Source of the DNA: Halichondria panicea
Taxonomy: Eukaryota; Porifera; Demospongiae; Suberitida; Halichondriidae
Direction: 5' to 3'
NCBI RefSeq assembly: GCF_963675165.1
Contig: NC_087377.1
Location: 13,574,198 to 13,638,197 of the forward strand
DNA: 64,000 nucleotides
The notes below the pieces were generated by a model that saw only the letters and a program-made list of their open reading frames with translations, was not told the DNA's origin and searched no databases. The position numbers and the translations under genes were made by a program. Below, piece after piece: positions 1,054-61,836 of the stretch; position 1 is the first letter of the stretch; each line of letters begins with the position of its first letter.

Positions 1054-2925
1054 ATGCTTATACCAACTCAGGTCTTGCTAATTACTGTCTCAGATCGTAT
1101 TTTTCGGTATAAATTATGCTATAAATTACTTTACTGTTATTTCTCTACCAAAAAGAGGCATCTCTAATGTCCAACACGAGTGTAGCATGTCCTGGTGAGG
1201 CTGTTCTGTTCACATGCTCTTCGCCTGGTACTGCATTGAGATGGCAAGTAGATCTACTATCACCAGCAGGGACGTCACTGCAAAGTTTCTTCCTTCCCTC
1301 ACAAGTTGGTGTTCCAAGGACACTTGAATCTGGGGTGATCATATTTGAGGCTGTTCTTGTAAGCAATGATGGTGGAAATCTGACGTCCACTCTCATCAAC
1401 CTCAGTGAAGTGTCTGTACTGGGTGATAGCAATGTCACCTGTACTGTTATTAACAATGGTCCTACGTCACAGCAGCAAGCCATCATGGTTGCTGGTGAGT
1501 ATTGTAATTCATAGCTAAGCCTGTTGAGATGTTATTATTGCAGTTGTCCCAACACATCCACTCAATCCAAGCGTATCCTTCATTCAAAACCAACTCAGTT
1601 CCTCGATTATCACTCTGGACTGGGATCCTCCCTCCTCTACTGGTGGTGTGTCTGTCAGCTATGTCCTCATCATCTCCCCAACACCTCTCTCCGGGTCACC
1701 AGTCACCATGGACACCACCTCCATACAGATCACTGTCTCCTATAGCACTCCCTACGATGTGACTATCAGAGCTGTCAACTGTGTTGGAATGAGTCAAGAA
1801 AGTTCAATTGTGGATCTAAGTAAGCTAGCTATTTCATGGTGACTGCCGTCACATATATACGTACTCATTCCCTATCATACTTTTATCAATGCAGTTGTGT
1901 GCCCCACTCCATCTACTGCTGCTGGTGTTACCATCACCAACACACCTCCTGTCACTATTGATGGATCCATGCTCACCTTCACTTGCAGTGGAGACAATGA
2001 AGTGATAATCTCAACCTGTGGCAGTAGTGGGTGGTCTCCTGACCCTAGGACATTTGAATGCAGAACAGGTATCCTACGTAGCGGATCAACTGTATAATGT
2101 TGATTTCATTAGATCCTCAAGTCACCTGCGGCTCTCCTGCCACACCATCTAAAGGCAGTGTGGATGTCAGTGGTGAGACACCACCCTTTACACTAAGCTC
2201 ACAAGTCATCTATCGCTGTGATGAGGGACTGTTCCCCCCTGATGTGAGGACCAGCACATGCACTGATGTGGAGAGTAGGGGAGAGTGGGTGGAGAATCCT
2301 GGGAGCTTGGTGTGCAGGAAGAGGCCAGGTGAAACGTAGCTGTTTAGAGGTAATGTTTTTATTTCCTTCGAAAAAGCTCATTTTGTAATTTCTGGGACGT
2401 ATAATTGTAGTAGCTTACATATACATCGCCTTTGTTCCACATTTCCCTAAGTACGTATACAGTCATTTTGTTACCTTCCATATTATAGTCAACTGCTCTC
2501 TTCCTCCTGAGCCCTGTAACGGTGCTATAGTGGACTATGAGAGGTTAAATGAGACGGTGTTGGAGGGAACAGTGCTGACTTACCAGTGTGACAATGGAAT
2601 CTCACTGACTGGACCCAACACCATCACTTGCACTAATACTAGAGTCTGGAGCACTGAGCCTGAAACAATCAAGTGTGTGCCTAGGACTGAAGGTCAGTAA
2701 TTTTTTGCTATTCCAAAAATACATGCAGTCATATTATCCCCTCTCACAGTTTCTACTGTCGCTATCAGTGTGGTCATCACTTTCATTGTCACTCTAGTCA
2801 TTGGATTCCTCACTGGACTCCTAGTGATGCATCTTTTCTCTCGTAAGAAAGCAGTATACTCCCCGGCAACTGAAGGACAAGCTAACATAGGACCCACTGC
2901 ACTAGTTGGTCGATCCTGTTTATGA
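1054..2925 (+). CDS. Receptor A: Ig-FN3-CCP x3-TM, tail truncated by frameshift
   Basis: Predicted type I membrane receptor. Exons by splice sites: Ig 1156-1494, FN3 1544-1819, CCP1 1895-2068, CCP2 2113-2328, CCP3 2489-2692, TM and tail 2750-2925. Each ectodomain exon is a multiple of 3 and phase 1 at both ends. The Ig exon has the Cys pair (CPGEAVLFTC, NVTC) and a core Trp (RWQV); the FN3 exon ends with the family NCVG motif; each CCP exon shows the Cys/Trp pattern. The TM segment begins VAISVVITFIV. The signal-peptide exon is uncertain: 1054-1096 (starts MLIPTQVLLIT) fits phase and is hydrophobic but short. In the tail exon a 4-bp GATC insertion at about 2911-2916, relative to paralogues, shifts frame and brings in TGA at 2923-2925. 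This removes the YEEV/YGPL end that remains readable in another frame up to 2998. It may be a signalling-dead or decoy form, or an early pseudogene. Confidence 0.75.
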
Positions 2926-2999
2926 GGAGGTACCAGTATCACCCAAAGAGGAGATTGAACTCAACACAAACCAGGCGTATGGACCGTTAGGACTGTAAA

Positions 3000-4818: not shown

Positions 4819-6750
4819 ATGCAAGTACAGGCAGTTATTATCAGCATCCAGCTGTTTAGTCTTGCTGCAGGTAAGTTATATACATAGATCATCATCTATG
4901 TGTTCACTGGAACACACAATTTGTTTCAGCCACACTGATATCCACTCCCCCTGTGGTCTGTCCTGATGACACTGTCACCTTCACTTGCACTCTGCCTGGT
5001 AGTCTCATACGATGGACAGTGACTCCTCCACAAGGCCAAATGTTCCTCATCACTTTGAGTACCAGTAACACTGAGGACACACAAGGTAATCCAGCATTCC
5101 GTGGTGTTCTCACTGACTCCAGTGGAGGAATGCTCACTGCCACTCTCACCTCACTGTCTGAGACCTCCATTGTAGAAGGTACTATGGTGTTGTGTGAGGG
5201 AGCAAGCTCACAAGAGGGTCCTCTTACTATCACTGTGGCTGGTGAGTGGATGATGGAATGTATGTAGAGTTATATCTATAGTCAATACACCCACAGATCC
5301 ACCCAGCCCTCCACTGAACCCAAGAGTGTCCTCCACTCAAAACCAACCCAGCTCCTCCATTATCACTCTGGAGTGGGACCCTCCCTCTTCTACTGGTGGT
5401 GTGTCTGTCATGTATGTCCTCACCATCTCCCCAACACCTCTCTCTGAGTCACCAGTCACCGTGGAGACAACCTCTGCACAGATCACTGTCCTATACAGCA
5501 TTCCTTACAATGTAACCACCAGAGCTGTCAACTGTGCTGGAATGAGTCAAGAAGGTCTAATTGTGGATCTTAGTAAGCCATTCCATGGTCGTAATTATGT
5601 ATATATTGTACTCTTTCTCAGTTTTGTGCCCCACACCGTCTACTGCTGCTGGTGTGACCATGACCAACACACCTCCGGTCACTATTGGTGGATCCATGCT
5701 CACCTTCACTTGCAGTGGAGACAGTGAAGTGATAACCTCAACCTGTGGCAATAACGGGTGGTCTCCTGACCCTGGGACCTTCGACTGTGGCACCCCAGTT
5801 ACAGGTATCATACATGGGCAATTAACTCTCTAAAAGGAATGTTGATCTCATGCATTAGATCCCCTAGTCACCTGTGGATCTCCAGCTGCACCATCCAGAG
5901 GCAGTGTGGACATCCCTTCTCACTGGGTTCAGAGGTCACCTTCCACTGTGATGAGGGACTGTTCCCCCCTAATGTGAGGACCAGTACATGCACTGATGTG
6001 GGGGGTAGAGGAGAGTGGGTGGAGAATCCTGAGAGCTTGGTGTGCAGGGAGAAGCCAGGTGAAATGTAGTTGTTTAGAAGCTTGATTTTTCCGTCAAAAA
6101 ATAGTTTATGTGACTGCATGTGTACAGTTGTACCGCCTTTGTTCCACATTTCTTAGTATTCTGCAATGGCAGGTCATTGGGTGCTCATGTTGAGCTGATG
6201 AGATACAAAGATGTATACTCACAGTTATTTTCTGACCGTCCCTATATATAGTCAACTGCACTGTACCTGCTGAGCCGTGCAACGGTGCTATAGTGGACTA
6301 TGAGAGTTTGAATGAGACAGTGTCGGAGGGAACAGTGCTGACTTACCGGTGTGACAATGGATTCTCACTGACTGGACCCAACACCATCGCTTGCACTAAT
6401 GCTAGAATCTGAGGCAATCATGTGCGTAGGTCAGTAATTGTTTGCTATCCCAAAATTAATACAGTCATAATTATCTCACTGTTTTTACTGTCGCTCCCTT
6501 GTTCTCCACTTCTGCAACTGTCGCTATCAGTGTGGTCATCACTTTCATTGTCACTCTAGTCATTGGATTCCTCACTGGACTGCTAGTGATGTATCTTTTC
6601 TTTTGTAAGAAAGCAGTGTACTTCCCAGCAACTGAAGGACAAACTAACGCAGCGTCCACTGCACCAGCTGGTCCTGTTTATGAGGAGGTATCACCCAAAG
6701 AGGAGATTGAACTCAACACAAACCAGGCGTATGGACCATTAGGACTGTGA
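4819..6750 (+). pseudogene. Receptor B: Ig-FN3-CCP x3-TM-tail, broken in CCP2, CCP3 and TM splice
   Basis: Exons: signal peptide 4819-4870 (MQVQAVIISIQLFSLAA), Ig 4930-5241, FN3 5297-5572, CCP1 5622-5804, CCP2 5859-6058, CCP3 6252-about 6456, TM/tail from about 6490 to the stop at 6750. All exons through CCP1 are intact and phase 1. CCP2 is 200 bp against 216 in gene A: a 16-bp deletion near 5907 shifts frame to an early TGA. CCP3 has lost about 14 bp near 6411, making an in-frame TGA, and the TM-exon acceptor reads CACTG where paralogues have CACAG. The last exon still encodes an open TM and complete tail with YEEV and YGPL. At most a soluble Ig-FN3-CCP1 product could be made; exon skipping cannot rescue the TM acceptor. 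Most likely a recent pseudogene. Confidence 0.8.
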
Positions 6751-10123: not shown

Positions 10124-11511
10124 ATGATACTAATAAGAGTACTTCTCCTGATTTGCTTTCTGGCTGCCTTCAGCACTGGTACGTAAGACTGACTATTCAA
10201 TTATAGATGTCCTTACATTGCTGCATGTTTCATAAAGCCCAATATTCAGTGAGTGTGGAGAGACCATGTCCAATGGAAACAGTCACTTTCACCTGCACTG
10301 CTGTTGGAGATTCGTTGAGATGGGAACTGCCAGATGTTTCTGCTCCGATCACTATCCTCTCTACTGCTGGTCTCAATGTACCACTAATGCAGTCAGGTTA
10401 CACTGTGACACTGATTGCATTCAACGACACTACATTAACATCTACTCTGTCAAAAACAGCAGTGAATAGGATCACTGTGTCCTGTGTGGAGCTTAGTATG
10501 CCTGATCTGACCACTATAGGATCTTCAACAATCAGTTTGGTTGGTGAGTTGCAGTTAGTGTCTTGTCTATTGTCTGTATATGCACTAAGTTACATAATTA
10601 GATCCACCAGGACCACCGTCTACCATCAGACACTCCACTCTGAGCAGCTCAGCTAATGAAGTTAGTGTATCTGTGCAGTGGAACCATCCTACTGAGACTG
10701 GTGGTAGAGATGACCTCACATACACAGTGACAGTCTCACCTCCGGCCCAGCTCTCTGCTACTGTCCTCACATCCACCTCTATCACTGTGACTGCTCAATA
10801 CAATATGGACTACACTGTCAGTGTTGTGGCTATCAACTGTGCTGGGAACAGTACAACAGCTGGGTACAACTTTAGGATTGGTGAGTTTTATTATTTTTTA
10901 CACAAAGTGTCAACTTCCTCTCAGGTGGCTGTCCTGTGCTGACCAACCCCATAAATGTAGCCTTTGGACCAGTCTCCAGCAGAATACCAGGATCCACAGT
11001 AACCATCCAGTGTGATGCTGGATATGTGTCTGCTATTGCTATGGTGACATGCGAGGGCAGTACATTGATATGGAGTCCAGACCCTGAGGCTATTGAGTGT
11101 ACATCACTAACCACAACTCGTGAGTTGAGTTAGTTGTATTGATGATTATATATAGTGTTTATCCTCTCTGTGTTAATTATTCATTACACAGCCCCTCCAA
11201 TAAACTGCACTGCTCCACTATCCCCACCACTTGAACCATCTACAGCTGCTCCTTGTAATTGTGCCAGCCTATCTGCAGCTGTCTCCACCAGTGTGGTTGT
11301 CACGGCAATTCTATTCACGATAATAGGATTATTTGTGGGACTCTTGATAATGTGTTTGCTCATGCATAAGAAGAATTCGTGCTCTTCGTCAGCTAAAGAG
11401 CAAGCTAACGTAGGACCCACTGTACCAGCTGGTCCTGTTTATGAGGAGGTGTCACCCAAAGAGGAGATTGAATTGAACACTAACCAGGCGTACGGACCAC
11501 TAGGATTGTAA
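10124..11511 (+). CDS. Receptor C1: Ig-FN3-CCP-TM with ITAM-like tail
   Basis: Five intact exons join in phase to 384 codons: 10124-10178 (signal peptide MILIRVLLLICFLAAFS), 10238-10543 (Ig, residues 19-120), 10602-10880 (FN3, 121-213, with NCAGNS), 10925-11119 (single CCP, 214-278, four Cys), 11192-11511 (Pro-rich stalk, TM about 313-335, tail). All ectodomain junctions are phase 1. The Ig exon keeps CPMETVTFTC, RWEL and VSC. The tail ends with Y362 (YEEV) and Y379 (YGPL), 13 residues apart between motifs, close to an ITAM. The Ig acceptor reads ATAAAG, a weak pyrimidine tract but shared with C2. It is a predicted plasma-membrane type I receptor; ligand unknown. It differs from A/B/D by having one CCP rather than three and a Cys-bearing stalk (CNC). 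Confidence 0.88.
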
Positions 11512-15329: not shown

Positions 15330-15470
15330 GACTGCATAGCCTCACAGATAATCAGGAGTTCCTTTGCCAGTTGCTCCTCTCCGATCTTACTATGGTCTGC
15401 CAACTCCCTCCAGGTTGGTCTTCCAGAGCAACTCTTCGTCATCCATTAGCCAATCATTTCAGCCAAGCAG
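15330..15470 (-). pseudogene. Isolated Death-domain exon fragment
   Basis: On the minus strand this reads SCSGRPTWRELADHSKIGEE, matching the second Death-domain exon of G1 and G2. The upstream part contains a TAA where G1 and G2 encode the DQW segment, and three residues are missing in the ADH-SKI part. No matching first Death exon is seen upstream. A similar fragment lies at 23951-24100. It is a relic of a long-tail receptor or of a Death-domain exon attached to the HEAT-like gene. Confidence 0.6.
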
Positions 15471-17601: not shown

Positions 17602-19977
17602 ATGACACTAATAGAGCTCATTGGAGTTCTTCTGATTTGCTTTCTGGCTGGCTTCAGCACTGGTAAGAACTGAGTATTCAATTATAGATTTCCTTACATT
17701 GCTGCATTTTTCGTAAAGCCCAATATTCAGTGAGTGTGGAGAGACCATGTCCAATGGAAACAGTCACTTTCACCTGCACTGCTAATGGAGATTTCTTAAG
17801 ATGGGAACCGTCAGATGCAGCTCGCACGATCACTGTACTCTCCACCTCTGGTCTCAATGTAGCCAATGTTGTATCAGGTTACACCGTAACACTGATTGCA
17901 TTCAACGACACTACACTAACATCTACTCTGTCAAGAACAGCAGAGAATGGGATCACTGTGTCCTGCGTGGACCCACTGCCTACTCTAACCACTATAGGAT
18001 CTTCAACGATCCGATTGGTTGGTGAGTTGCAGTTAGTGTCTCGTCTATTGTCTGCATACACTAAGTTACATATAGATCTACCAGGACCACCTTCCATCAG
18101 ACACTCCATTTCAAGCAGCTCATCCATTGAAGTCAGTGTATCTGTACTGTGGAACCCTCCTACTGAGATTGGTGGTAGAGATGACCTCACCTACACAGTG
18201 ACCATCTCACCTCCGGCCCAGCTCTCTGCTACTGTCCTCACATCCACCTCTGTCACTGTGACTGCTCAATACAATGTGGACTACACTGTCAGTGTTGTGG
18301 CTACCAACTGTGCTGGAAACAGTACAACTGCTGACTACAACTTCAGAGTAGGTGAGTATAATTGTATATTTTTTGAACACAGTATCAATTGATCCTCTTA
18401 GGCGGCTGTCCTGTGCTGACCAACCCCATAAATGTAGCCTTTGGACCTGTCTCCAGCAGATTACCAGGATCCATAGTAACCATCCAGTGTGATGCTGGGT
18501 ATGTATCTGCTGTTACAATGGTGACATGTGAGGGTACACTGATATGGAGTCCAGACTCTGAGGCTATTGAGTGTACATCACTAACCACACCTACTCCCAC
18601 AACTCGTGAGTTAAGTACGGTGGCCCTGAGCGTTACTATTAGTTCACCTTAGCTACTTGATACTTTGCCTACCGTAGCTACTGGGTAGTTCGCCTACCTT
18701 AGCTACTGGGTAGTTCTACTTGATAGTTCGCCTACCTTAGCTACTGGGTAGTTCTACTTGATAGTTCGCCTACCTTAGCTACTTGATAGTTCACCTACCT
18801 TCGCTGCTTGATAGTTCACCTACCTTAGCTACTTTGCAGTTGACCTTTGAACTGCATGTTAATTCTATTTAATGCTGCTATAGCCGTACTGTACATAGCG
18901 ACTAGAGATCAATAATGAGAGCTACATATGCACGTATACAGGTACTGAGGATTATCTAACAGCAATGCAAGACTAGAGTACCACACCAGAACCATTGTAT
19001 AGTACAGAATTCTTGTGCTGCGATGGGATTAGGAGATATAAACGTGAACAACTTGAACTGCATGTGTTGTATTAGTCTGGGGCCAGACCTTTTCTCAGAG
19101 GGGAGGGGGAAGAGAAGAAAAAGGTCTCTTAATATAATCCTAGCTCTATTGCCCCAAGCTATTAGACTAGCTAGTATTGTATAACATGTAACTTCCAAAT
19201 GAATCAAGTGTGGTACTCTCATCTTGCATTGCTGTTACCCATAGGGTAGCACTAACCGGCTGCAGATAATCCTCAGTACCTGAATATATACATGGAGCTC
19301 TCATTTATATTGAGTCACATGGCTCCAGCAGCATTAACATACAGTTCAAAGGTCAACTTCGAAGTAGCTAAGGTAGGTGAACTATCAAGTAGCTAAGGTT
19401 GGCGAACTATCAAGTAGCTAAGGTAGGCGAACTATCAAGTAGCTAAGGTTGTTGAACTACAAACTTAAGGTAGTTGAACTACCCAGTAGCTAAGGTAGGC
19501 GAACTACCCAGTAGCTAAGGTAGGTGAACTATCAAGTAGCTAAGGTGAACTAATAGTAACGCTCAGGGCCACCGTAGTTAAGCTCTTGGCTGTATATAGT
19601 TATATAGATATTAATTCTATTACACAGCCCCTCCAATAAACTGCACGGCTCCACTATCCCCACCACTTGAACCACCTACAGCTGCTCCATGTAATTGTGA
19701 TTGTAATTGCGCCAGCCTATCTGATGGGAGTCGATTTGATGCAGCTGTCTCCACCAGTGTGGTTGTCACGGCAATTGTATTCACGATAATAGGATTATTT
19801 GTGGGACTCTTGATAATGTATTTGTTCATGCATAAGAAGAATGTGTACTCCCCGGCAACTAAAGAGCGAGCTAACGTAGGACCCACTGCACCAGCTGGTC
19901 CTGTTTATGAGGAGGTGTCACCCAAAGAGGAGATAGAACTGAACACTAACCAGGCGTATGGACCAGTAAGACTGTGA
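17602..19977 (+). CDS. Receptor C2: Ig-FN3-CCP-TM with ITAM-like tail
   Basis: Close paralogue of C1. Exons 17602-17662 (signal peptide MTLIELIGVLLICFLAGFS), 17719-18021 (Ig), 18076-18351 (FN3), 18402-18605 (CCP), 19628-19977 (stalk, TM, tail) join in phase to 397 codons with no stop. Compared with C1 the stalk is longer and holds CNCDCNC; the TM core is FTIIGLFVGLLIM. Tail tyrosines are Y375 (YEEV) and Y392 (YGPL); the terminus is RL instead of GL. The last intron is 1022 bp because it contains the inverted-repeat element at 18616-19574; other introns are about 50 bp. The start codon lies next to inserted DNA, so the first residues differ from C1, but the leader remains hydrophobic. Confidence 0.87.
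18616..19574. mobile_element. Long palindromic transposon with subterminal tandem repeats, in C2 intron
   Basis: Ends TACGGTGGCCCTGAGCGTTA and its reverse complement; flanks carry GTTAAG on both sides (6-7 bp target duplication). Each arm then holds several copies of a unit like TAGCTACTTGATAGTTCGCC, about 200 bp per arm. A further inverted repeat lies inside (AGGTACTGAGGATTATCT near 18940 against its complement near 19270). No transposase is evident. Confidence 0.8.
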
Positions 19978-22984: not shown

Positions 22985-23950
22985 CTGAGGGGGAGGGAGA
23001 GATAGTGAAATACAGTGGAACAATAAACAAAGAACCTTCAGAGATAAGGGACACTGTAATAATAAAATAATAAGGACAGTGCTTCCGTCCCCGAAATTTC
23101 CTATACTCAAAAACTATATCCTCCAAATAAAAGGAAAACCTCTCTCTATCATATTATTAAGTGCCGTAAATATCAGTAAACATAGATAGTATGAAAAGTT
23201 TATAAATGGTAAGCATCAGTCAACCAACAAACACATTTTGTACTAGGGTGGGTAGATTAGGTAAAGACTTTAGAACAGATAAGCAACAATCACTCTGAGC
23301 CCAAACAGACGGTAAAGACCCACTCTACAATAAACATGAAGTGAGACAACAGTTAAGCAGATATCTGTGCTTGTGTGTGTGTGCCCCCCCCTCCCCCCAC
23401 ACACACGCACGCACAGTTATCAGAGCTACAACCGTTAGTTTTAAAACAGTCAATAGATGCATTTAAAGGGAATGACAACTTAAAATGAAATCAGGGATGA
23501 TTCATGCATGCAGGTGAATCTTACTGGACATGTACTCTACCGTGGTGCTTACGTAGATGTACATACATGCATGCTTGAACGAAAGTTTCAGTCTCACTTC
23601 CATTATGCACTACCCCCCCCCCCGGGACATACGGGGGATTTTGACTCTAACTTGACTTGAAATGTTACTCCATACTGGGGGATTTGACCTGGCTTTGCGT
23701 AGTAATTATAAAGACTGCTTTTATAACCTGTTTGCAACTGCTTGGTGCTCAAACCCCCTGTTGACTGGGAGATTTGAACACAGAATCCTTCCCCCTACCA
23801 GGGGGAATTTGCCCTAAGGTATGGTTAAATCCCCCATGTTAGCCCGACCCCTCCCGGGGGGGAGGGGAGAGTGGGGCGACACATTGATAGGTGCATTACC
23901 ACTAGATCTATCACATGCCAATATCTATTAAACATACTGATGCATACTCA

Positions 23951-24100
23951 CCAGCTAGCAGCAGCCTCAGGAGTTCCTTTGCCAGTTGCTCCTCCCAGAT
24001 CTTACTAAGATAATTATGGTCTGCCAGCTCCCTCCATGTTGGTCGTCCAGAGCAACTCTTCCATCCCTCCATTAGTCAACCACTTCAGTACAGCAGCTGA
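23951..24100 (-). pseudogene. Isolated Death-domain exon fragment, second copy
   Basis: The minus strand encodes KSCSGRPTWRELADH, then NYLSKIWEEQLAKELL, and a GTGAGT donor follows at phase 1, as in the second Death exon of G1. A one-base frame change before the KSC block separates it from its upstream WLT part. An ATAATTAT-type insert adds residues in the middle. Confidence 0.6.
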
Positions 24101-24359
24101 GACAAAACAGACGGTAAAGATCCACTACACAATAAACATCAAGTGAGACAAGTTCTGATAAAGGGTCATGCATTCTATAACCATTATTTAATGGACACAT
24201 AAAGGGTCATACAATCTACAACCGCGGATGTACATAATCATTACTGGTTGGCTGGTGGCAGTCTCTCCTCTGGGAGGAACTCCCTCGTAACCATAGAGGC
24301 TGACATACACAATAAACAATAAAACGTCTCATGCTTGACATGATACAGGGAACCTCTTG

Positions 24360-30303: not shown

Positions 30304-30379
<76 letters not shown>

Positions 30380-33300: not shown

Positions 33301-33458
33301 GACTGGCGGACAGTCTTAGGTTGAGTGGAAAGGTTGGAGCAACTGCAATTCAAGAGATTGACTTTGTCAAATATCCCAGAGGTGAATGTAACTTGCCAAA
33401 CAGACTTACCTGGTTCTCTACAAACACTGCCCTTAATTCGTTCCAGTAAGTTTGTCAT
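27791..33458 (-). CDS. Receptor G1: FN3-CCP x3-TM, multi-tyrosine tail, Death domain, Pro-rich end; altered 5' part
   Basis: Minus-strand exons: 33458-33410 (MTNLLERIKGSVCREP), 33342-33061 FN3, 33021-32845 CCP1, 32797-32591 CCP2, about 32557-32353 CCP3, 32246-32092 TM, 32041-31994 (DYSEL), 31864-31811 (GYSRV), 31681-31634 (TYDEVV), 31572-31525 (GYSTM), 31475-31437 (GYGQL), 31183-31012 (VVYAAL, VTYATV), 30296-30163 and 29945-29780 Death domain, 28326-28170 and 27887-27791 proline-rich end (stop 27791-27793). All phases agree from FN3 on. Odd points: no Ig or signal-peptide exon; the first exon matches phase but is not hydrophobic. The CCP3 acceptor is missing through a 25-bp deletion relative to G2; skipping CCP3 keeps frame. 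Death helices show WRELAETM and GRPTWRELAGHL. Predicted signalling receptor or a decayed relative of G2. Confidence 0.7.
28641..28933. mobile_element. pogo-like MITE, CAGTAGAACCTCGATTATCC ends, TA target
   Basis: Ends CAGTAGAACCTCGATTATCC and its reverse complement, flanked by TA on both sides, as in pogo/Tigger-type Tc1-mariner elements. It lies in the intron of G1 between the Death domain and the proline-rich exon. No intact transposase. Confidence 0.8.
29105..29664. mobile_element. Inverted-repeat element in G1 intron
   Basis: AAGGTTACGATGCAGTGT at 29106 pairs with ACACTGCATCGTATAACCTT at about 29645-29664. A second pair, GGGCGGCTCGAA near 29232 and TTCGAGCCGCCC near 29367, is nested inside. 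No ORF of note. Confidence 0.6.
30303..30425. repeat. (GA)n then (GT)n microsatellite in G1 intron
   Basis: A long GA run followed by a GT run, directly before the first Death-domain exon of G1 on the minus strand. The equivalent place in G2 (58282-58355) has GT/GA as well. Open reading frames through it are artefacts. Confidence 0.95.
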
Positions 33459-34899: not shown

Positions 34900-36802
34900 A
34901 TGTTCACAACAGAGGATTTTATTTTTATACTTCTGTTGACAATATCTATTGTGTCTGGAGGTATGATTATACTGTAGGTTAACAGTAAATCTTCAAGCTG
35001 TGATTTCAGAAGCCTCTCTAGTGTCCAACAGCAGTGTGGCATGTCCTGGAGAGGCAGTTCTGTTCACATGCTCTTCGCCTGGTACTACAGTGAGATGGCA
35101 AGTGAATCCTCCAGCGGAATCTGGGTTGATGTCAGTACAAAGTATAATCTTCCTTGGTTCTGGAGTTGGTCGAAGGGACACATTTGGATCTGGAGTGATC
35201 ATGTTTGAGGCTGTTCTTGTAAGCAATGATGGTGGAACTCTGACTTCCACTCTCATCAACCTCAGTGAAGTGTCTGTACTGGATGGAAGCAATGTCACCT
35301 GTACACTTGTTGGTGGTGGTGGTGATGTAATGGAGTCACAACAGACTACTGTCGTAGTTGCTGGTAAGTACTTACCCAATATTCTGTTGAGACTAAATCT
35401 CTTGAATTGCAGTTGCTCCAACCTTTCCACTCAACCTAAGACTGTCCGCCAGTCAAAATCAAATCAACTCGTCCATTATCAATGTAGAGTGGGACACTCC
35501 CTCCTCTACTGGTGGTGTGTCTGTCAGGTATGTCCTCACCATCTCCCCAACACCTCTCTCCGGGTCACCAGTAACCATGGACACCACCTCAGCACAGATG
35601 ACCATCTCGTATAACGCTCCCTACAGTGTGACCATCAAAGCTGTCAACTGTGCTGGCTCTAGTACTGATGTGATGGTGATGATTCCATCTATTGGTTAGC
35701 TATATAAAGCTGAAATTATACTCTTAACGTGTACGTTTATCTTATAATTATGTAGTTGTTTGCCCATCCAACCCACCACCTGCGGACCGAGTGACCATTG
35801 TTGGTGGTCCTCCACTGCCTGCACTATTACGATCAACCCTGAGCTTCATTTGTAATGGAGAGACGGTAACAGCATCCTGTGATAGTGATGGACGATGGTC
35901 ACCTGACCCTACCACTTACGTCTGTAGCTCAGGTAAAGTAGATCGAATTATTATCAGACTGTTATTAGCACCCCCTCAGAGATCACCTGTGGCTCTCCTG
36001 CTGCACCTTTCAGAGGCAGTGTGGATATCAGTAGTGGGGTACCACCCTTCCCATTGAGTTCAGAGGTGACCTATCGCTGTGACGAGGGATTGTTCCCAGC
36101 TGGTGATATGACCAGTACATGTGAGAGTGTAGGTGGAGTGGGAACTTGGAGACCAGACAACACTAATATCATTTGCAGAGACATGCTTGGTGAGCAGCTA
36201 AACTCTTTTAGTGTGCATTTTAGCATTTCACCACAGTAAACTGCTCTCTACCCGAGGAGCCATCCAACACAACCATATTGGACTATGATAGACTGAACGA
36301 GACAGTGTTGGAGGGAACAGTGCTGACTTACCATTGTGACAATGGACTTTCACTGATTGGACCCAACACCATCACGTGCACTAACGCTGGAGTTTGGAGC
36401 ACTGAGCCTGAGGCAATCATGTGTGTACTCCATGCAACAACTGAAGGTGCATGTAGGCCATCATGTGTGTACTTGAATGTGTGTAGCTTTTGTTAATAGT
36501 TCGTACTCCCATATAAATATCTCAATTCCACAGATCCTACTGCCACCTCCCTATCCGTTGGTGTAGTTGCTGCTATCAGCGTAATTATTACTTTCTTTGT
36601 GGCTGCCATTCTTGGATTCCTCACTGGACTCCTAGTGATGCACCTTTGCTCTCGTAAGAAGGCAATATACTCTCCAGCAACTGAAGTACAAGCTAACGTA
36701 GGACTCACTGCACAGCCAGCTGGTCCTGTTTATGAGGAGGTGTCACCCAAAGAAGAGATGGAACTGAACACTAACCAGGCGTATGGACCATTGGGACTGT
36801 GA
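34900..36802 (+). CDS. Receptor D: Ig-FN3-CCP x3-TM with ITAM-like tail (intact)
   Basis: Seven exons join in phase to 521 codons with no stop: 34900-34960 (signal peptide MFTTEDFIFILLLTISIVSG), 35010-35363 (Ig, residues 21-138), 35413-35694 (FN3, 139-232), 35756-35932 (CCP1), 35980-36189 (CCP2), 36237-36446 (CCP3), 36534-36802 (TM about 440-467 and tail). Ig Cys pair CPGEAVLFTC/NVTC and Trp RWQV; FN3 VEWDTP and NCAGSS; four Cys per CCP. Tail: basic stop-transfer CSRKK, then Y498 (YEEV) and Y515 (YGPL). The CCP2 acceptor is the second AG (CCCCCTCAG), because the earlier TTATTAG would break frame. FN3 to CCP2 are nearly the same as in G1/G2, so D combines a long-class ectodomain with the short tail. 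This is the clearest complete three-CCP member. Confidence 0.9.
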
Positions 36803-37794: not shown

Positions 37795-39940
37795 GTGAAC
37801 TTGTTGGTGATCCAGCATCTTCTGTTGTGTTAGCATGCAGTGATGATTAACTCTCAGATAAGAGGTATGATGACAAGAGTGTATTTAATGTGTGATTGAA
37901 CCTAAACAGAATTAGCCTCTTTATTGTCCAACACGAGTGTGGTGTGTTCTGGAGAGGCAGTTCTGTTCACATGCTCTAAATTAAATCCTGGTGTTGCATT
38001 GAGATGGAGAGTAGATCCTCCAACAGAGTCTGGGTTGATGTCAGTAGCACAATAATTATAATCGATTCTGATTATAGCTGGTCGAAGAGACACATTTGGG
38101 TCTGGAATAAGCAAATTTGAGCCTCTTCTTTTGAGCAACGATGGTGGAAATCTGACATCCACTCTCATCAACCTCAGTGAAGTGTCTGTACTGGATGACA
38201 GTATCGTCACCTGTACTGTTACTATTAGTGGCGGTTTAGCAATAGAGTCAAATCAGACTATTATTATTATAGTTGCTGGTATAAGTATCATTTCTCATAT
38301 GCATGCATGCTATTAAGAGTGTTGATACACACGCACATGCAGTTGCTCCAACCTCTCCACTCAACCTATTAAATACTATACGTCACTTAAAACCAAATTG
38401 ACTCTTCTATTATCACTCTGGACTGGGACTCTCCCTCATCTACTGGTGGTGTGTCTGTCAGCTATGTCCTCATCATCTCCCCAACACCGCTCTCTGGGTC
38501 ACCAGTCACCATGGAGACCACCTCCACACAGATCACTGTCCGAGGCTCCTATAACACACCCTACAATGTGACCATCAGAGCTGTCAACTGTGCTGGAATG
38601 AGTCAAGAAAGTTTAATAGTTGATCTAAGTAAGCTAGCTACTTCATGGTGACTGCCATCATTGATCATAGGCTGCAATTGTATATAAATAGGCTATTTTA
38701 TGATCATAAAACATAAATGTCTTTTCATGGTCATGCAACAATCAGGTATACTTTTAATGCAGTTGTGTGCCCCACACCGTCTACTGCTGCTGGTGTGATC
38801 ATCACCAATACACCTCCCGTCACTATTAGTGGATCCATGCTCACCTTCACTTGCAATGGAAATAATGAAGTGAGAACCTCAACCTGTGGCAATAGTGGAT
38901 GGTCTCCTGACCCTGGGACCTTAGAATGCAGAACAGGTATATCCTATATATGTAGTGGATTAACTGGGTAATGTTGACCTCATTAATTATATCTCCAAGT
39001 TACCTGTGGCTCTCCTGCCACGCCGTCCAGAGGTAGTGTGGACGTCAGTAGAGGGACACCACCCTTCACACTAACCTCAGAAGTCATCTATCGCTGTGAC
39101 GAGGGACTGTTCCCCCCTGATGTGAGGACCAGCACATACACTGATGTGGGGGATAGGGGAGAGTGGGTGGAGAATCCTGGGAGCTTGGTGTGCAGAGAGA
39201 GGCCAGGTGAAATGTATAGCTATTTAGAGGCAAAGTTTTTATTTCATTTGAAAAATCTCATTTTATAATTTCTGTGACGTACAGCAGTTGTATTAGCTTA
39301 CGTATACCACCTTTGTTCCACATTTTCTTAAGGTTCAATAGCAGCTAGGTTATAGGATGCTCGTACTGAGCTGATTGCATGGCAAATATATCATTTTCTG
39401 ACCATCCATATAGCAAACTGCTCTCTTCCTGCTGAGCCCTGCAACGGTGCTATAGTGGACTATGATAGGTTGAATGAGACAGTGTTGGAGGGAACAGTGC
39501 TGACTTACCAGTGTGACAATGGACTCTCACTGACTGGACTCCACACAACACCATCACTTGCACGTACTAATGCTGGAGTCTGGAGCACTGAGCCTGAGGC
39601 GATCATGTATGTAGTTAGTACTGAAGGTCAGTAATTGTTTGCTGTCCCAAAATACAGTCATACTCATCTCACAGTTTCTACCTTGTTCTCCACTTCTGCA
39701 ACTGTCGCTATCAGTGTAGTCATCACTTTCATTGTCACTCTAGTCATGGATTCCTCACTGGACTCCTATAGTGATGCATGTTTTCTCTTGTAAGAAGGCG
39801 ATGTACTTCCCGGCAACTGAAGGACAAGCTAACGTAGGACCCACTGCACCAGCTGGTCCTGTTTATGAGGAGGTACCAGTATCACCCAAAGAGGAGATTG
39901 AACTCAACACAAACCAAGCATATGGACCATTAGGACTGTA
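37795..39940 (+). pseudogene. Receptor E: Ig-FN3-CCP x3-TM-tail, multiply broken
   Basis: All family exons can be followed in order: leader near 37795, Ig 37914-about 38278, FN3 38344-38627, CCP1 38763-38937, CCP2 about 39000-39207, CCP3 about 39414-39627, TM/tail about 39677-39940. Lesions: an ATAATTATAAT-type insertion in the Ig exon makes two in-frame TAA codons near 38054-38060; a 4-bp net insertion shifts the FN3 frame; the CCP2 acceptor AG is lost (CATTAATTATAT instead of CATTAGAT); one CCP2 Cys is Tyr (STC to STY); CCP3 has 9 extra bases; two bases lost near 39744 shift the frame inside the TM segment. The tail motifs YEEV and YGPL persist as sequence. Clearly dead. Confidence 0.88.
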
Positions 39941-40004
39941 AAACTCATTCACTATAATATTCAATAGCATTCAACAAGTTAATTGTGACTACTCTGCCTT
40001 GTTA

Positions 40005-52879: not shown

Positions 52880-53420
52880 AAAGTTGATCACATAACTTCC
52901 GGGGTCGAACTCAATGCAAATAGACTTTATAGTTGGCATTACATGAAGTGTGTTGATTGTCATGCGCTGAAAGCCTTGTCATGTATACACGACAAATTAA
53001 TAGATAAGCGGTGACAAGGACAATTGACAATTGAGGTTATAATTATGTATGTAGCATTTCAAGTTTTTGTGTAGAATCCAATGATGCGTTACAGCAACAT
53101 TATAAGTACGCCATAAAAGCAACGAAGCCATAATTGACCACATAACTTCCGGGGTCGCACTCAATGCAAATAGACTTTAGTTGGCATTGTATGAAGTGTG
53201 TTGATTGTCATGCGCTGAAAGCCTTGTCATGTATACACGACAAATAAGCGGTGACAGTACAATTGAGGTTATATGTACCATTTCAAGATTTTGTGTAGAA
53301 TCCAATGATGCGTTACAGCAACATTACAAGTACGCCATAAAAGCAACCAAGCTTCCTACACATGTCAAAAGTCCGAGTACAAAATTTCAATTCAGATGCA
53401 CAAATGATATTGATGACGTC
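52880..53420. repeat. Direct repeat, about 250 bp, two copies
   Basis: The block from CATAACTTCCGGGGTCG to GTACGCCATAAAAGCAAC occurs at about 52890-53120 and 53142-53347. A third, more diverged copy of part of it lies at 26036-26200. It is the 3' flank of G2. Confidence 0.75.
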
Positions 53421-53825
53421 AAGCTTTGCTATGAAAACACCAATCAGTGTAATCACAGGGGTTCCCCAGTAAATTCCAGACACAACCAATGAGAGGAAGT
53501 GACATAGGCAGACACGAAATGACAGGCAACCTCAATTACTTGGAGGGCACACAATTAATCCATGTATCCATAGAAACAAACCAGAGCTATATATACATAT
53601 ATATCATTGTATATAATTTATACAAATTAATGTTCTCGATACATGAGCAGTGATCAAAAAATGTTTCTAAAAGCGAATTGAGAAGAAATAACCTATATGA
53701 ATAAAACTTTCTTAATGACAATTAAGTGATTGTGACTAAACTATGGGATAACACACTTGAGTTCATGTATTGAGTTGATACTAACAAATTGCACTAAAAT
53801 TTTTGTTGTATTCTGTACCACACAC

Positions 53826-55502: not shown

Positions 55503-55533
<31 letters not shown>

Positions 55534-58500
55534 AGTGGCGGATCCAGTATTCTAGCTCAACCCATTCTTTGCAACTTTCACGAAGTGGGTGTGGCTTAGA
55601 GCAGAATAGCAGACAATCTAGCTGAGACTTTTTGAAGCTGAAGAGCAAGATGACTTCATGCATTTCTGCTATTTGCTGCTACTATGTATGTCATATTGTT
55701 GATAATTATAGTCATCTTCAAACCCATGGCCAGAAAAACTACACTGATTGGCCTTAAAAAAACAGTTGACCTTTTGTAAAAATGTTTCTTTTAATTGCCC
55801 CTCCCCCCTTTTCAAAAGTCCTGGATCCGCCCCTGGTGTGTGTACTATAATTGGAATTTTAATCAATCTTGAAGATAGAGCCATTATACACATGTAGGAA
55901 GTAAACCTGTCGTATGATATAAGTGATCCTTCTAGCAAAGCTTATTTAAGGATTGCAGATCTCTGTTCTAGCCCATAAGTTAGAGATGAAGTGACTTAGT
56001 CTGTGTTTAAAACACTCTCTATAGTAAAGTTTGTGAGGCAATAGATGACTTCCATAAGCCTTCCTTAGCTGATTTATCCATAGATAAACGAAAGAAAGGG
56101 ATAGGCAACGCCCAGCACTTCCGTTGGATGAGGCGAGCTGCTAAAAAGGGGCGTGTAATGAGCAAAAGGGGTGTGTGCACTCAAAATGTCAGTAAAGAGT
56201 TTGTAGTATTATAGCAAACTGTGCTCTTGAGGAGACACCAGATACACTTAGACATAGGCTATTAATCTTTTAGAGCTACTATATGCAAAGTGATGAGAAA
56301 GTGAGCTCCAAAGGGGGTGTCAGTACACTCTACAAACCATAACAGGTCTGTTCCCAAGTCCTTCAAATGCCATCTCTTCGATCACACAATACAGATAAAG
56401 ATACTTGTGTTCCACTTTCTAATACCTAAACTGTATCTTAGAGTACTTCAAACTAGATTACCATGTACAGTAAGAGCAGGAGAGGTACGCAAACTTTCTG
56501 GACTTTGGACAAACGTTTCATGGTGCTGCTACTACTTCACTGCATTGAGAGCTGGAAAATATGCTTTGTTCCATGCAGTTATAAACACACTTTAATTCTG
56601 TGAAACGTACATGTTATAAAATTATTTCATATTGGAGATAGAGGTACATAAACTGACAAATTGGTGTTTTTTCACACAAATCAAGCTGAATAAAAGAAAG
56701 CTCGGCACTAACATAGCAGCTGTAGCTATCAGTAGTGCTGGGTGTATGTGTGCATGATGCTTGATTGCTTTGAATTTCTCTTTTAGGCCCCCTACGAGAA
56801 AAATAAGCAGATATAGGGATCATTGTGTACTTTCTTGAGCGCAACAAAGTAAACAGCAGCAGGTTGAAGTGCCTCTTATAAATTTTATTTTTATGTTGGT
56901 CCCAGCATAGATTGAATAGGGAGAGGGATTGGAAATGGAAGTAGCGTCACGTGACATTTTACATTGAATTTGCAGCATAGCACTAGAGAGCTTTTGATGT
57001 CAATCCGTGTTACGGTTGCTCAACACGCGGGAAACAATGTTTCATGATTATGATCACTACAAAATATTCAGAGCCCCCCTAAAACGTCATTCTCATGCCC
57101 CCTAATGGTGAGCATTAGTTGGAAAAGAAAATATACATTTTTGACTTTTGTGAAGATAATAATAGCTAGAGGTACAAAACGTTCTTTGTTACGCTATGAG
57201 ATCTTTATGTACCTAGAATGCTAGCTTCTAAGGACACTCCAAGTGATACTCTGGTTTCTGGTCCACCGCCCGCATCAGATTTTATTCTTGGATTTCTATC
57301 TCATTATTGGATTTCTATCTACTACGCATGCGCAGAATGGTCCATGTGGCACAAAATAGTGTGATAATGATATTCATTTGCAAAATAATGAGATTCATAA
57401 GGTGAAATTGATATAATGAGAAAAGCCGCCCGCCCGCATGCAATTAGAAAAACTTCAGGACCAGAAACCAGAGTGTCACTTGGAGTGGCCTAATATAGCT
57501 AAGACTGTGCAACTCATCGGTGTACTGTGTCCCATATGGTCTCAAGTGTCAGTTGGAAGTGCAAGTTTTAGTACAAATGTAGTATAATCTAGCAGACAGT
57601 CAAGGGTACCAGATTATACCAACGTTAGATACACAGCCTCGATTACACCAAGGCGTAGTGCGGATATAATTCGAGGTAAGTTCCGTTTCCAATCCCTCTC
57701 CCTATTCAATCTATGGTCCCAGTCCTTAATGCACCTGATCGAGAAGTAACACACATGAAACCACTATTCACCAGTATCGTAGATAGTCATAAGCTCCTTT
57801 GACAGTTGCTCTTCTCCGATATGACTAAGATGACCAGCCAGCTCTCTCCAGGTTGGTCGCCCAGAACAGCTCCTCAACCACTGGTCGATCACCTCCGTTA
57901 GACAGCCACTATGGTTGATTCCACATGAATCCTCGATCTAAAATGAGATATTTGAGTGAGTTATACCAACAATAGATTGGCACTTCTATTTGTACGATTA
58001 AGGTGTGACCAAACAATGGGTTAGTTATATGACTTTTAAGAAAGTTATTGTTATCAACTTTCATCATGTAAAAACAACAACACATTCCTTCACACCACGT
58101 ACAGAACAATGATTGACCCTTGATAGATTTAAGATTAGTAAGTACCTGTTCAATCATTGTTTCAGGCAGCCTCATAGTCTCAGCCAGCTCCCTCCATTTG
58201 TGGTCCATTGACCTGATCTGCACCAAGGCCTGGTCAATGTCCAGGAGCTTGTCCACATCAGGCGGGGCTGGGGCTGAGGCTGTGTGTGTGTGTGAGAGAA
58301 TGTGTGTGTGTGTGCGTGTGTGCGTGTGTGCGTGTGTGTGTGTGAGAGAGAGAGAAAACTGACCTCGCTAATGCAAAGAGGCCACCTAAAACATAATATT
58401 ATTTCAGTACGCTATATGCTTCAGGGCAGCCACTACAATTAGGTCACCTGTCACTGGAGGAAGCAATGAACACTTTCTAACACCCAAGCCATGAATACCA

Positions 58501-61500
58501 TTGAGGGGAGTCTATAGCAGCTATATCTTGGTGCACCAACTCAGTGTGTGAATTCACATAACAAGGTTAGCTCTCAATCACCCACTGCTTTAAAAGGTAA
58601 GGGTAAAGCCAGAAGCTGTAAACTTGACAGCTTATCAAAGAACCACTTCCACTGGTTCCTAATCAGCTAGTCAGGTGATGGGATTCTGCCATTTCGGCTG
58701 ATTAAGAAGAAGTATGCTGTAATGTTGTCTGTTCCTGGTAGTTTTAATTAGGATGCTTCTATCTTGTCTTTTCCAAGTGTTGTTTTGCCTGTCTACCAGG
58801 AACAGACAACACTATATACAGCTTAATCATATGGAAATGGGAAAAAATGAGGATCTCGCTAGATGTCTCTAACTACCAGGAACGGACGCACTATGGTACA
58901 TTCTAACATATCTGGTACACCTATCAACAATGACTCAAAGCCTAATCACACAAACAGACTCACCTGTTGGGCTGGCGGGGAGGGTGGCTGCCTTGGCTTG
59001 CTTCCTACTGGTGGCAGCAACATCCACAGTGGCGTAGGTGACGTGGTGCTGGTCCACTGTGGCAGTCGTGTTGCTGCCTTTCTTGTGGGGCTGGCTGGAG
59101 CTAAGGGCAGCATAGACCACTGGCTCCACTGTAGCCTGGGGTGTCGGGAAACAAACAGTGTCAAGAATATATTTCAGTTACAGATCTGTACAATGTGATG
59201 CAGGATATTGCGGTAAAGTATTGTATTGGTGTACATGCACCACAGGACACGCACAAACAGTTTCTTTATGAACCAAAGATGATTTGTTTTAACTTGAAAT
59301 AAGTATAGTTAGAATGCCAACCAAAACAAACACCCATTAGTCACAATACTCTCACTAATGACTGCACACACACACACACTCACCACATTGCCGAGCTGGC
59401 CATAGCCGGGGAGCCTCTGAGTCTGCAGGAAAATGGAATGCAATGAACAATTGTGTCTAGATGAAAATTACCTGTTTAGTGTTCATTGTACTGTAGCCTT
59501 CTGAGTTGACTCCTATTTTCTGTAAGGAGGAAAAATAAAAAATCAATGCTTTGTTCAATAGCTCCAGGTATATAGTGTTACGTACATTGTCTGAGTTGAG
59601 GACCACCTCATCGTAAGTTAGTGCTCCAGCATCCTATACATTATAACATATAGAAAGTGAGTGCACTACACATTTTTTATATGCCATAAACCAATTTTTG
59701 GCTAAATGTGAGGTACCATGGTCTACATGTATATAGTGTAAACTGACTGAGCTCTTCTCACCGGGCTACGATTGACTCTGCTGTAACCCTCAGAGTCAGG
59801 AGGAGGAGGTTGGGCCTGACAGAGAGACAGAACAAGAAAGTGGGGAGAGACACATTATTTAAGTTACTTTCAGCATCATAACGTACAGCAGCAGCAAAAA
59901 ATCAACTCACTTTCTTTGCATTCCTTGGGCCGTCATGCCTCAGCTCACTGTAGTCTCCCTGAGCAGTGACACATAGATACACACTACACACCGAGTTTAT
60001 GATCTTACCTGAAGTCCCGACATCTCCACCACATCTTCATTGAGCTCGTCTGATTTCTGTCTCCTCAGTAAGCACAGGGCAATCACCACGATGAGTATGA
60101 GACACACCAGCACCAGTGTTCCACCAAAAACACCACCAACTATAAGTCCAATAGAGGGGGGGACAACAGCTGCATGGAGCAGGGAAGGAAATCAATGACG
60201 CTCATCACAATGGATATGCACGTACACAGTATACAATACTTTCATACACATAGAGGCTGATCAAGTGCTTACTTTCAGTTGTTGGGGGTACACACATGAT
60301 TGCCTCAGGCTCAGTGCTCCAAACTCCAGCGTTAGTGCAAGTGATGGTGTTGGGTCCTGTCAGTGAGAGTCCATTGTCACACCGGTAAGTCAGCACTGTT
60401 CCCTCCAGCACTGTCTCATTCAACCTCTCATAGTTCAATATGGTTCCGTTGGATGGCTCCTCAGGGAGAGAGCAGTTTACTGTGGTGAAATGCGATATAA
60501 TTAAAAAATGCACACTAAAAAGTTTAGCTGCTAACCAAGCATGTCTCTGCAGGTGATATTAGTGTCTGGTCTCCAAGTTCCCACTCCACCTACACTCTCA
60601 CATGTACTGGTCATAACACCAGCCGGGAACAGTCCTTTGTTACAGCGATAGGTCACCTCTGAACTCAATGGGAAGGGTGGTGCCCCACCACTGATATCCA
60701 CACTGCCTCTGAAAGGAGCAGGAGAGCCACAGGTGACCTCTGAGGGGGTACTAATAACAGTCTGATAGTAAATCGATCTACTTTACCTGAGCTACATACG
60801 TAAGTGGTAGGATCAAGTGACCATCGTCCATCACTCTCACAGGATGCTGTTACCGTCTGTCCATTACAAGTGAAGCTCAGGGTTGATTCTAATAGTGCAG
60901 GCAGTGGAGGAGCACCAACGATGGTCACTTGGTCCGCAGGTGTTGGGTTGGAGGGGCAAACAGCTGCATCAGATAAACGTACACGTTAATAGTATAAATT
61001 TCAGCTTAATAGCTAACCAATAGATGGAATCATCACCATTACATCAGTACTAGAGCCAGCACAGTTGACAGCTCTAATAGACACATTGTAGGGAGTGTTA
61101 TACGAGATGGTCATCTGTGCTGAGGTGGTGTCCATGGTTACTGGTGACCCGGAAAGAGGTGTTGGGGAGATGGTGAGGACATACCTGACAGACACACCAC
61201 CAGTAGAGGAGGGAGGGTCTCACTCTACATTGATAATGGACGAGTTGATTTGATTTTGACTAGTGGACTGTCTTAGGTTGAGTGGAAAGGTTGGAGCAAC
61301 TGCAATTCAAGAGATTAGTCTCAACAGAATATTGGCTAAGTACTTACCAGCAACTATGACATCGACAGTAGCTATTACATCACCACCACCACTAACAATT
61401 GTACAAGTGACATTGCTATCATCCAGTACAGACACTTCACTGAGGTTGATGAGAGTGGAAGTCAGAGTTCCACCATCATTGCTCACAAGAACAGCCTCAA

Positions 61501-61836
61501 ACATGATCACTCCAGATCCAAATGTGTCCCTTCGACCAACTCCAGAACCAAGCAAGATTGCACTTTGTACATACATCAACCCAGATTCCGCTGGAGGAGC
61601 CACTTGCCATCTCACTGAAGTACCAGGCGAAGAGCATGTGAACAGAACTGCCTCTCCAGGACATGCCACACTAGTGTTGGACACCAGAGAGGCCTCTGAA
61701 TTAATAGGGGGTAAAGTAGTGTTGAATGTAAATTGGTATTCTATCTTTAAAGAATAATATTTTGATCTGTCTCACCTACAGCTGAAAGCCCAATTGCAAA
61801 AACAAGTAGGAGAGATCTTCTGACAAAAAACTCCAT
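53826..61836 (-). CDS. Receptor G2: Ig-FN3-CCP x3-TM, ITIM-like tyrosine tail, Death domain, Pro-rich end
   Basis: Seventeen minus-strand exons join in phase to 796 codons: 61836-61776 (leader MEFFVRRSLLLVFAIGLSA), 61695-61348 Ig, 61299-61018 FN3, 60963-60787 CCP1, 60739-60536 CCP2, 60479-60273 CCP3, 60169-60009 TM (about 433-461), 59958-59911 (Y483 YSEL), 59815-59762 (Y507 YSRV), 59633-59586 (Y521 TYDEVV), 59519-59472 (Y539 YSTM), 59422-59384 (Y553 YGQL), 59135-58964 (Y567 VVYAAL, Y593 VTYATV), 58279-58146 and 57937-57772 Death domain (617-716), 55493-55343 and 53913-53826 proline-rich end (RPPKP). One lesion: codon 163 in FN3 is TGA (61222-61220) where D and G1 have TGG in VEW. Otherwise it is fully open. 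It may be a polymorphic null, a soluble Ig form, or a sequencing error. Large introns hold transposons. Confidence 0.85.
54088..55240. mobile_element. Element with CAGTGGCGGAT ends and CTTTG target duplication, in G2 intron
   Basis: Left CAGTGGCGGATGCAGG, right CCTGGATCCGCCACTG; CTTTG flanks both ends (54083-54087 and 55241-55245). It contains the pogo-like MITE at 54365-54778, which therefore inserted later. Located between the two proline-rich exons of G2. Confidence 0.75.
54365..54778. mobile_element. pogo-like MITE nested in a second element
   Basis: Ends CAGTAGAAAACCTCGCTAAT and ATTAGCGAGGTTCTACTG with TA on both sides. Same broad type as 28641-28933 but distinct internal sequence. Confidence 0.8.
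55533..55835. mobile_element. Short copy of the CAGTGGCGGATCCAG element
   Basis: CAGTGGCGGATCCAG at the left and CTGGATCCGCCCCTG at the right, within a GT-repeat that provides the target. About 300 bp. It lies in the G2 intron after the Death exons. Confidence 0.7.
56899..57722. mobile_element. Inverted-repeat element, ATAGATTGAATAGGGAGAGG ends
   Basis: GGTCCCAGCATAGATTGAAT left and ATTCAATCTATGGTCCCAG right, arms about 45 bp. Contains the nested element at 57230-57491. Lies directly downstream of the second Death exon of G2. Confidence 0.8.
57230..57491. mobile_element. Nested inverted-repeat element
   Basis: ACTCCAAGTGATACTCTGGT and the complement ACCAGAGTGTCACTTGGAGT, arms about 33 bp. 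Inserted in the element at 56899-57722. Confidence 0.75.

Follow-up and report, generated by a model that had tools for sequence, protein, structure and literature searches.

At the fuhc locus of Botryllus schlosseri, the fester and FcoR genes form a large cluster of receptors that join immunoglobulin (Ig) and Sushi ectodomains to long tails bearing immunoreceptor tyrosine-based inhibitory motifs (ITIMs) and other tyrosine motifs, and each fester-family gene is described as adjoining its cognate co-receptor, the motifs being on the latter (PMC12065747). Here we describe an array of receptor genes in a sponge genome, eight loci of which lie in a stretch of 64,000 nucleotides, C1:13574198-13638197 (hereafter the window, meaning the whole stretch analysed), in which one kind of ectodomain is found on either of two unrelated tails. 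The array resembles fester/FcoR in its size, its Ig-like plus Sushi ectodomain, its long tail with ITIMs and other tyrosine motifs, and its adjacent partner genes, one of them without a known signalling domain; this likeness concerns arrangement only. It differs in adding a Death domain after the ITIMs, a fibronectin type III (FN3) domain, and the use of a single ectodomain cassette on two tails.

Hydractinia, an animal of an early-branching lineage, likewise has Ig-type receptors in a cluster, the Alr family, which comprises 41 genes with tyrosine motifs of the ITIM or immunoreceptor tyrosine-based activation motif (ITAM) type. To our knowledge Alr proteins contain neither complement control protein (CCP, or Sushi) modules nor a Death domain, and the main feature of the sponge genes, one ectodomain exchanged between two tails, sets them apart from Alr. 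In the vertebrate paired receptors (KIR, LILR, PIR, SIRP and Xenopus FcR-like; PMC2413239), the activating partner combines a charged membrane residue with an ITAM adaptor; we know of no Death domain among them. The sponge array shares with these receptors matched ectodomains on different tails, an ITIM tail, clustering, and homogenisation of ectodomains. Unlike in them, no ITAM side was found, and membrane charge is mostly absent.

Death receptors and UNC5 are single-pass receptors with an intracellular Death domain, in UNC5 together with Ig domains. In contrast, none of four scanned sponge receptor proteins contains a TNFR, TSP1 or ZU5 domain, and their Death domain comes after as many as seven tyrosine motifs. 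In sponges, Ig-TIR receptors and an Ig/CARD gene also couple Ig-type domains to an intracellular death or innate signalling module; there the TIR or CARD module occurs in one or two genes, unlike the large, two-tailed ITIM plus Death array described here (PMC6208332). We found no published family of this design in the accessible open-licence literature, a body of work without preprints and most subscription papers.

Results

A first-pass annotation of the window had reported eight loci that share Ig, FN3 and CCP exons and divide into two tail classes. Self-comparison and exon searches recover all eight at the same coordinates, with the same division by strand. Six loci, all on the plus strand, belong to a short-tail class marked by YEEV...YGPL: A (1156..2998), B (4930..6750), C (10124..11511), D (17602..19977), F (34900..36802) and G (37910..39941). 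Two loci on the minus strand, E (29772..33342) and H (57764..61836), carry a long tail. The earlier description is amended in several respects. First, the ectodomains form two classes, an H-type (A, B, E, F, G, H) with an Ig-like domain, FN3 and three CCPs, and a C-type (C, D) with an Ig-like domain, FN3 and one CCP, the Ig-like exons of the two classes being 26-29% identical. Second, the eight loci are not all intact: only three of them, C, D and F, are open when their exons are joined.

The genome comprises 39 contigs and 131.46 Mb, and in it the array reaches far past the window, over C1:11.2-14.9 Mb. The short transmembrane (TM) plus tail exon has at least 150 genome matches, of which one lies on C7 and the other 149 fall within 11.25-14.93 Mb of C1, a count of 150 scored among 307 candidates that includes broken copies and from which the window copies in A, C and G are absent. 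The exon encoding two ITIMs occurs at 20 places, the second Death exon at 52 (several with stops) and the C-type Ig-like exon at 116 (fragments included). From 20 stretches, mostly around long-tail places, and a chosen sample of 20 short-gene stretches, together with the window, 14 long and 26 short loci were modelled. Six of the 20 two-ITIM places have no model: four are decayed (L019, L020, L026 and L021), one (L024) has no ectodomain in its stretch, and one is a weak match. Since the same exon order and motifs recur at loci megabases apart, a chance arrangement is excluded.

The ectodomains that the first-pass annotation had seen to be shared stand on two unrelated tails, between which they have been exchanged repeatedly. 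In a tree of Ig plus FN3 DNA from 31 of the 40 models (nine without an open Ig or FN3 exon were excluded, and H was represented only by its Ig exon), nine changes of tail label are needed, of which starred branches force at least five. A single long-tail clade is rejected by the approximately unbiased (AU) test (p-AU 3.1e-5), in part because the H-type and C-type ectodomains separate deep in the tree and each occurs with long tails. Groups that span the tail classes with 100% bootstrap support are H with F, L009 and L010 with L043, and L011 with L034. At the DNA level, four H-type comparisons give blocks of 1.0-1.8 kb, introns included, in which long and short genes are 91% (E/F and H/F), 96% (L009/L043) and 95% (L011/L034) identical. 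Identity ends at CCP3, having already dropped to 87-88% within that exon in L009/L043 and L011/L034, and the H/F block starts only at the Ig exon, the signal peptides of H and F being different. In two C-type long-short pairs the matching blocks are shorter (0.65-0.9 kb), less alike (83-88%) and end sooner. Such a pattern is expected if gene conversion or cassette exchange keeps long-short pairs matched.

The long tail has a fixed order: five exons of 39-60 bases in phase 0, each with one tyrosine, then the two-ITIM exon, then a Death domain on two exons. The one-tyrosine exons carry, in order, [DE]YS[EA]L, [GD]Y[SN][RI][VI], LTYDEV (LTYNGV in L016), YS[TV]M and YGQ[LI], and were found in 9, 12, 12, 11 and 12 of the 14 long models for Y1 to Y5, respectively. 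The two-ITIM exon encodes V[VI]YA[AV]L (Y6) and VTYATV (Y7). Scored against the ITIM consensus [SIVLT]xYxx[ILV], Y6 and Y7 are ITIMs in 14/14 long models and Y3 in all 12 with that exon; the strict count is three in those 12 loci, E and H among them, with a fourth in L023, and two in L015 and L025. Y6 and Y7 lie 23-26 residues apart, a spacing that suits a tandem-SH2 phosphatase. A Death scan covering five of the 14 modelled long tails (H, E, L010, L016 and L022) gave scores above the Pfam cut-off of 22.6 bits for H (22.9), E (31.6), L016 (23.6) and L010 (25.1). The long tail with ITIM-like motifs and a Death domain that the first-pass annotation saw in E and H is thereby borne out, with three exact ITIMs in each.

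In locus H, 15 exons run from the signal peptide to the Death stop with one in-frame TGA. Its ectodomain comprises the signal peptide (61776-61836), the Ig-like exon (61348-61695), FN3 (61018-61299, with the TGA at about 61220-61222) and three CCPs (60787-60963, 60536-60739, 60273-60479), followed by the TM exon (60009-60169), the tyrosine exons (59911-59958, 59762-59815, 59586-59633, 59472-59519, 59384-59422), the two-ITIM exon (58964-59135) and the Death exons (58146-58279 and 57764-57937). Locus E retains FN3, three CCPs, TM, five one-tyrosine exons, the two-ITIM exon (31012-31183) and the Death exons (30163-30296 and 29772-29945); exon and splice-site searches found no Ig exon, signal peptide or acceptor for CCP3 in it. 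All 12 long models outside the window, when joined from the Ig-like exon onward, are open to the Death stop.

Motifs of the YxxM type and an acidic-GY motif, which we liken to a hemITAM, also occur in the long tail. This mixture of ITIMs, possibly activating motifs and a Death domain means that the design of the long tail is not purely inhibitory, and its output may be of either sign. Two Death-like domains are present in relatives at C1:14427600-14437599 (L027) and C1:14505600-14515599 (L028). In L027 both pass the Pfam cut-off and each is preceded by open frames with tyrosine motifs, one of them VSYAMV; judged from open frames only, the combination of ITIM and Death seems to be repeated there as a module. 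Three other long-tail loci, L019 (C1:11778000), L020 (C1:13204000) and L026 (C1:12587500), had been considered as a third class, with tails that stop at the ITIM exon. This was rejected, as they are near-identical decayed copies with companions (see below) and with stops also in their CCP exons, lying 0.6-1.4 Mb apart; their likeness reflects either recent segmental duplication or an effect of assembly.

A gene for a candidate effector is present at C3:8404573-8406287, where SH2 and phosphatase matches coincide. The matching pieces correspond to two SH2 domains and one tyrosine phosphatase (PTP) domain, and the second SH2 with the linker matches PTPN11 at E 5e-57, making the gene SHP2-like. 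Another tandem-SH2 gene (L050), considered as Syk, was rejected; its SH2-SH2-SH3 order, read by eye only, is PLC-gamma-like. The tyrosine phosphatase domain has 176 genome matches, most of those listed in arrays on C4, mainly at 0.04-2.6 Mb, possibly a second expanded family.

The TM exon of all six short-tail loci in the window includes a tail resembling ...GPVYEEVSPKEEIELNTNQAYGPLGL, although in A and G this lies outside the reading frame. Gene C is composed of a candidate signal peptide (10124-10178) and Ig-like (10238-10543), FN3 (10602-10880), CCP (10925-11119) and TM+tail (11192-11511) exons, and gene D of a candidate signal peptide (17602-17662) and Ig-like (17719-18021), FN3 (18076-18351), CCP (18402-18572) and TM+tail (19628-19977) exons. 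Gene F has a candidate signal peptide (34900-34960), Ig-like (35010-35363) and FN3 (35413-35694) exons, three CCPs (35756-35932, 35980-36189, 36237-36446) and a TM+tail exon (36534-36802). The signal peptides of these three genes are candidates picked by a simple hydrophobicity scan. Locus A has Ig-like, FN3, three CCP and TM exons, and a frameshift before YEEV puts YEEV/YGPL out of frame. In B the frame is broken in CCP2 and CCP3 contains a stop, with the tail exon open; G has two stops in its Ig exon and a broken frame in its TM exon, leaving the tail out of frame.

The distance from YEEV to YGP is 17 residues in 21 of 25 short tails, a list outside which B falls; the exceptions are L031, in which Cys replaces the first Tyr, L048, for which the wrong exon was taken although the tail is present, and the frameshifted A and G. 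Canonical ITAM spacing differs from this distance. The membrane segments of C, D and F contain no charged residue inside, D having RFD at the outer edge. Among 20 sampled short copies, Arg lies inside the membrane segment in L032 and at its inner edge in L030, and outer-edge charges are Glu in L035, L042 and L045 and RFD in L046-L048; for L038 the segment was judged by eye.

The two parts of the receptors differ in constraint, measured as the ratio of nonsynonymous to synonymous change (dN/dS; Nei-Gojobori medians over moderately diverged pairs). Median values are 0.19-0.33 for the tyrosine exons and 0.20-0.22 for the Death exons, as against 0.61-0.62 for the Ig-like, 0.56-0.62 for the FN3 and 0.48-0.50 for the CCP exons; pooled values are somewhat above the medians, at 0.24-0.41 for the tyrosine and Death exons. 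For the short TM+tail exon the median is 0.42, with frameshifted sequence from A and G and a wrong exon call in L048 among the data, and for the long TM exon it is 0.71, with uncertain exon ends in C-type genes. Because dN/dS is low in the tyrosine and Death exons, these estimates indicate that the long tail is coding and kept, with the ectodomain freer to vary.

Profile searches of the four domain types that the first-pass annotation had named give a mixed result, with Death above its cut-off in E and H. A whole-protein Pfam scan of four receptor proteins (L010, L022, F and C) finds Sushi and fn3 outside the membrane, plus weak sub-cut-off matches. Against a Sushi cut-off of 20.7 bits, F scores 51.7 and passes, L010 and L022 lie well above, and C, at 14.5, falls below. 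FN3 scores span 16.2-23.9 bits over the four proteins, under the cut-off of 25, with F and C just short (23.1 and 23.9). The N-terminal domain is named Ig-like on a C-C-W-L-C pattern that is invariant in 12/12 aligned domains; against PDB profiles its best match is a xylosidase (0.023), followed mostly by antibody V domains from 0.042 among 60 listed.

Short places lie 116 on the plus and 33 on the minus strand, and two-ITIM places 5 on the plus and 15 on the minus strand (Fisher p 5e-6, decayed copies included). The nearest listed short place is antiparallel to the two-ITIM place in 19/20 cases, including segments with both inverted. Several array places come in identically scoring pairs, and growth of the array seems to have proceeded by segmental duplication. 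The head-to-head arrangement of E and F was considered as a general long-short rule and rejected, no short-tail exon having been found in the stretch examined upstream of the long genes.

A companion Ig-like exon lies on the opposite strand, 0.5-2.0 kb upstream of the Ig exon, at 8/8 modelled C-type long genes. Its family has 19 strong genome matches, all of them more than 20 kb away from each of the six H-type long genes. A companion FN3-like exon was read in five cases, ending in a GTTAGT donor in 5/5. At 9/11 companion loci examined the terminal exon encodes one hydrophobic segment and a stop; this exon was seen beside 6/8 C-type long genes and not at L014 or L023 (1.8 kb searched for L023). 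A Pfam scan of one companion returned no significant domain. A secreted companion was rejected, the apparent stop after FN3 being the common GTTAGT donor with a further exon following. Because the terminal exon consists of a hydrophobic segment and a stop with no cytoplasmic tail, the sequence suggests a tail-less or lipid-anchored partner.

Elsewhere in the window, relics of the second Death-domain exon lie on the minus strand at 15347..15469, downstream of gene C and with one stop, and at 23947..24126, downstream of gene D and with stops. Each ends one of two duplicated blocks, 12632-15518 and 20568-24153, which are 84-89% identical over most of their length and 75-79% near the end. The minus strand at 40600-43900 holds decayed fragments of a long terminal repeat (LTR)-type retroelement, with a weak reverse transcriptase match in one piece (E 6e-5, under the Pfam cut-off) and an integrase match at 0.11 only in another. 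Other repeats, 70-82% alike and without gene assignment, occupy 26026-28341 and 52931-55508. No transfer RNA genes were found. As to the organism, the motif CGASYAF, which we take to be a silicatein-type active site with Ser replacing the catalytic Cys of cathepsin, occurs at three places in the genome, all inside Peptidase_C1 matches on C2, and at none in a reversed control. These silicatein-like genes uphold the first-pass view of a sponge-like animal and most likely point to a demosponge.

Discussion

The explanation that we favour, with moderate confidence, is an array of single-pass, two-tailed recognition receptors with cassette exchange. Such receptors would sit in tandem in the genome and recognise non-self or self, on allogeneic cells or microbes, through the fast-changing Ig-like/FN3/CCP ectodomain, a near-identical ectodomain being read through two unrelated tails. 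Ligand binding would lead to tyrosine phosphorylation of the long tail. The two ITIMs, 23-26 residues apart, and the upstream LTYDEV would then recruit a tandem-SH2 phosphatase of the SHP2 kind; additional SH2 proteins would bind the other long-tail tyrosines, and a death-fold adaptor would bind the Death domain at the C-terminus. From the short tail a different signal would come through YEEV and YGP[LV], probably by SH2 docking. Gene conversion or recombination would copy ectodomain cassettes between the classes, so that pairs stay matched, and C-type long receptors may act with the tail-less Ig/FN3 partner encoded head-to-head.

Several observations weigh against this explanation. The gene models were built from genomic sequence, with splice sites looked for in the expected phase, so that phase agreement alone is weak evidence and partly built in. 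Many copies are broken, including 5/8 window loci. No median dN/dS exceeds 1, the ectodomain medians lying below it, and there is no sign of positive selection in these values. The N-terminal domain has no significant profile match (best Pfam Ig E 0.028), the Death region of L022 scores 17.1 bits, below the cut-off, and a search with a Death region against PDB sequences returned weak FADD matches only (E 0.078). The counts of 19/20 antiparallel places and 8/8 companions are not independent, as the loci share descent by segmental duplication. On the ectodomain tree, 147-150 of 500 shuffles place the tail label in as few changes, that is, without clustering; an unclustered label is what free exchange predicts, but it also means that the tree by itself reveals no tail lineages. 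Finally, no canonical ITAM was seen in the short tails, and charged membrane residues are mostly absent from the short receptors.

These last two points bear on the first-pass proposal of a paired system in a sponge. Common ectodomains, two tails, ITIMs and an SHP2-like gene are all present; no activating side was found, and recognition would be the role of the receptors. Given the non-ITAM tyrosine spacing and the scarcity of membrane charge, the idea of the short tail as an activating partner is not supported. Because no ITAM side, a defining feature of the vertebrate kind, was found, the array is not assigned to the vertebrate-type activating/inhibitory pairs. By comparison of gene anatomy and evolution, we would call it paired-receptor-like.

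A somewhat unlikely alternative is that only the long-tail genes signal, the many short-tail genes being decoys, adhesion molecules or a donor pool for ectodomain gene conversion. The excess of short over two-ITIM places (at least 150 to 20), the broken state of several short copies and the cassettes common to both classes would all fit such a role; yet the short tail hardly varies at its end (YEEV-17-YGP in 21 of 25), and the TM+tail exon has a median dN/dS of 0.42, so the tail itself is kept. We consider it unlikely that the genes encode a cell-adhesion or aggregation family of sponge tissue with no part in immunity or allorecognition: adhesion proteins often contain Ig, FN3 and CCP modules, but a recognition family fits better with the size of the array, its turnover and pseudogenes, the presence of ITIMs alongside a phosphatase gene, and the repeated exchange of tails. 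That the tails are separate neighbouring genes which only seem joined, the outcome that would have undone the first-pass annotation, is highly improbable and was rejected on exon order, joining and constraint, for although splice sites were sought in the expected phase and the models come from genomic DNA alone, strand and order are the same in 14 long models megabases apart, the gap from last CCP to TM is 38-140 bases in 12, all 12 outside copies join without an internal stop, and the exons of H can be joined all the way from the signal peptide to the end of the Death domain with a single stop between.

Within the favoured explanation of two-tailed recognition receptors, a more specific form is put forward tentatively: an allorecognition or immune-recognition complex built like the natural killer (NK)-receptor system, in which cassettes are copied between ITIM-plus-Death and YEEV/YGPL receptors that work with tail-less, head-to-head co-receptors. 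If this were true, each new specificity would be readable with two outcomes, and ITIM-based control of self and non-self would date back to sponges, where a death-fold output would be directly attached to it.

Which receptors let sponges distinguish self from non-self has long been an open question. In one review, the mechanisms of invertebrate allorecognition are called a complete mystery, and the candidate proteins of sponges, cnidarians and ascidians are described as showing no conservation, with the same signal transduction pathways from cnidarians to mammals (PMC12065747). A demosponge that has an SHP2-like phosphatase as well as two-tailed receptors bearing ITIMs and a Death domain would bring that pathway logic to Porifera, and the array supplies defined genes for typing fusing versus rejecting individuals.

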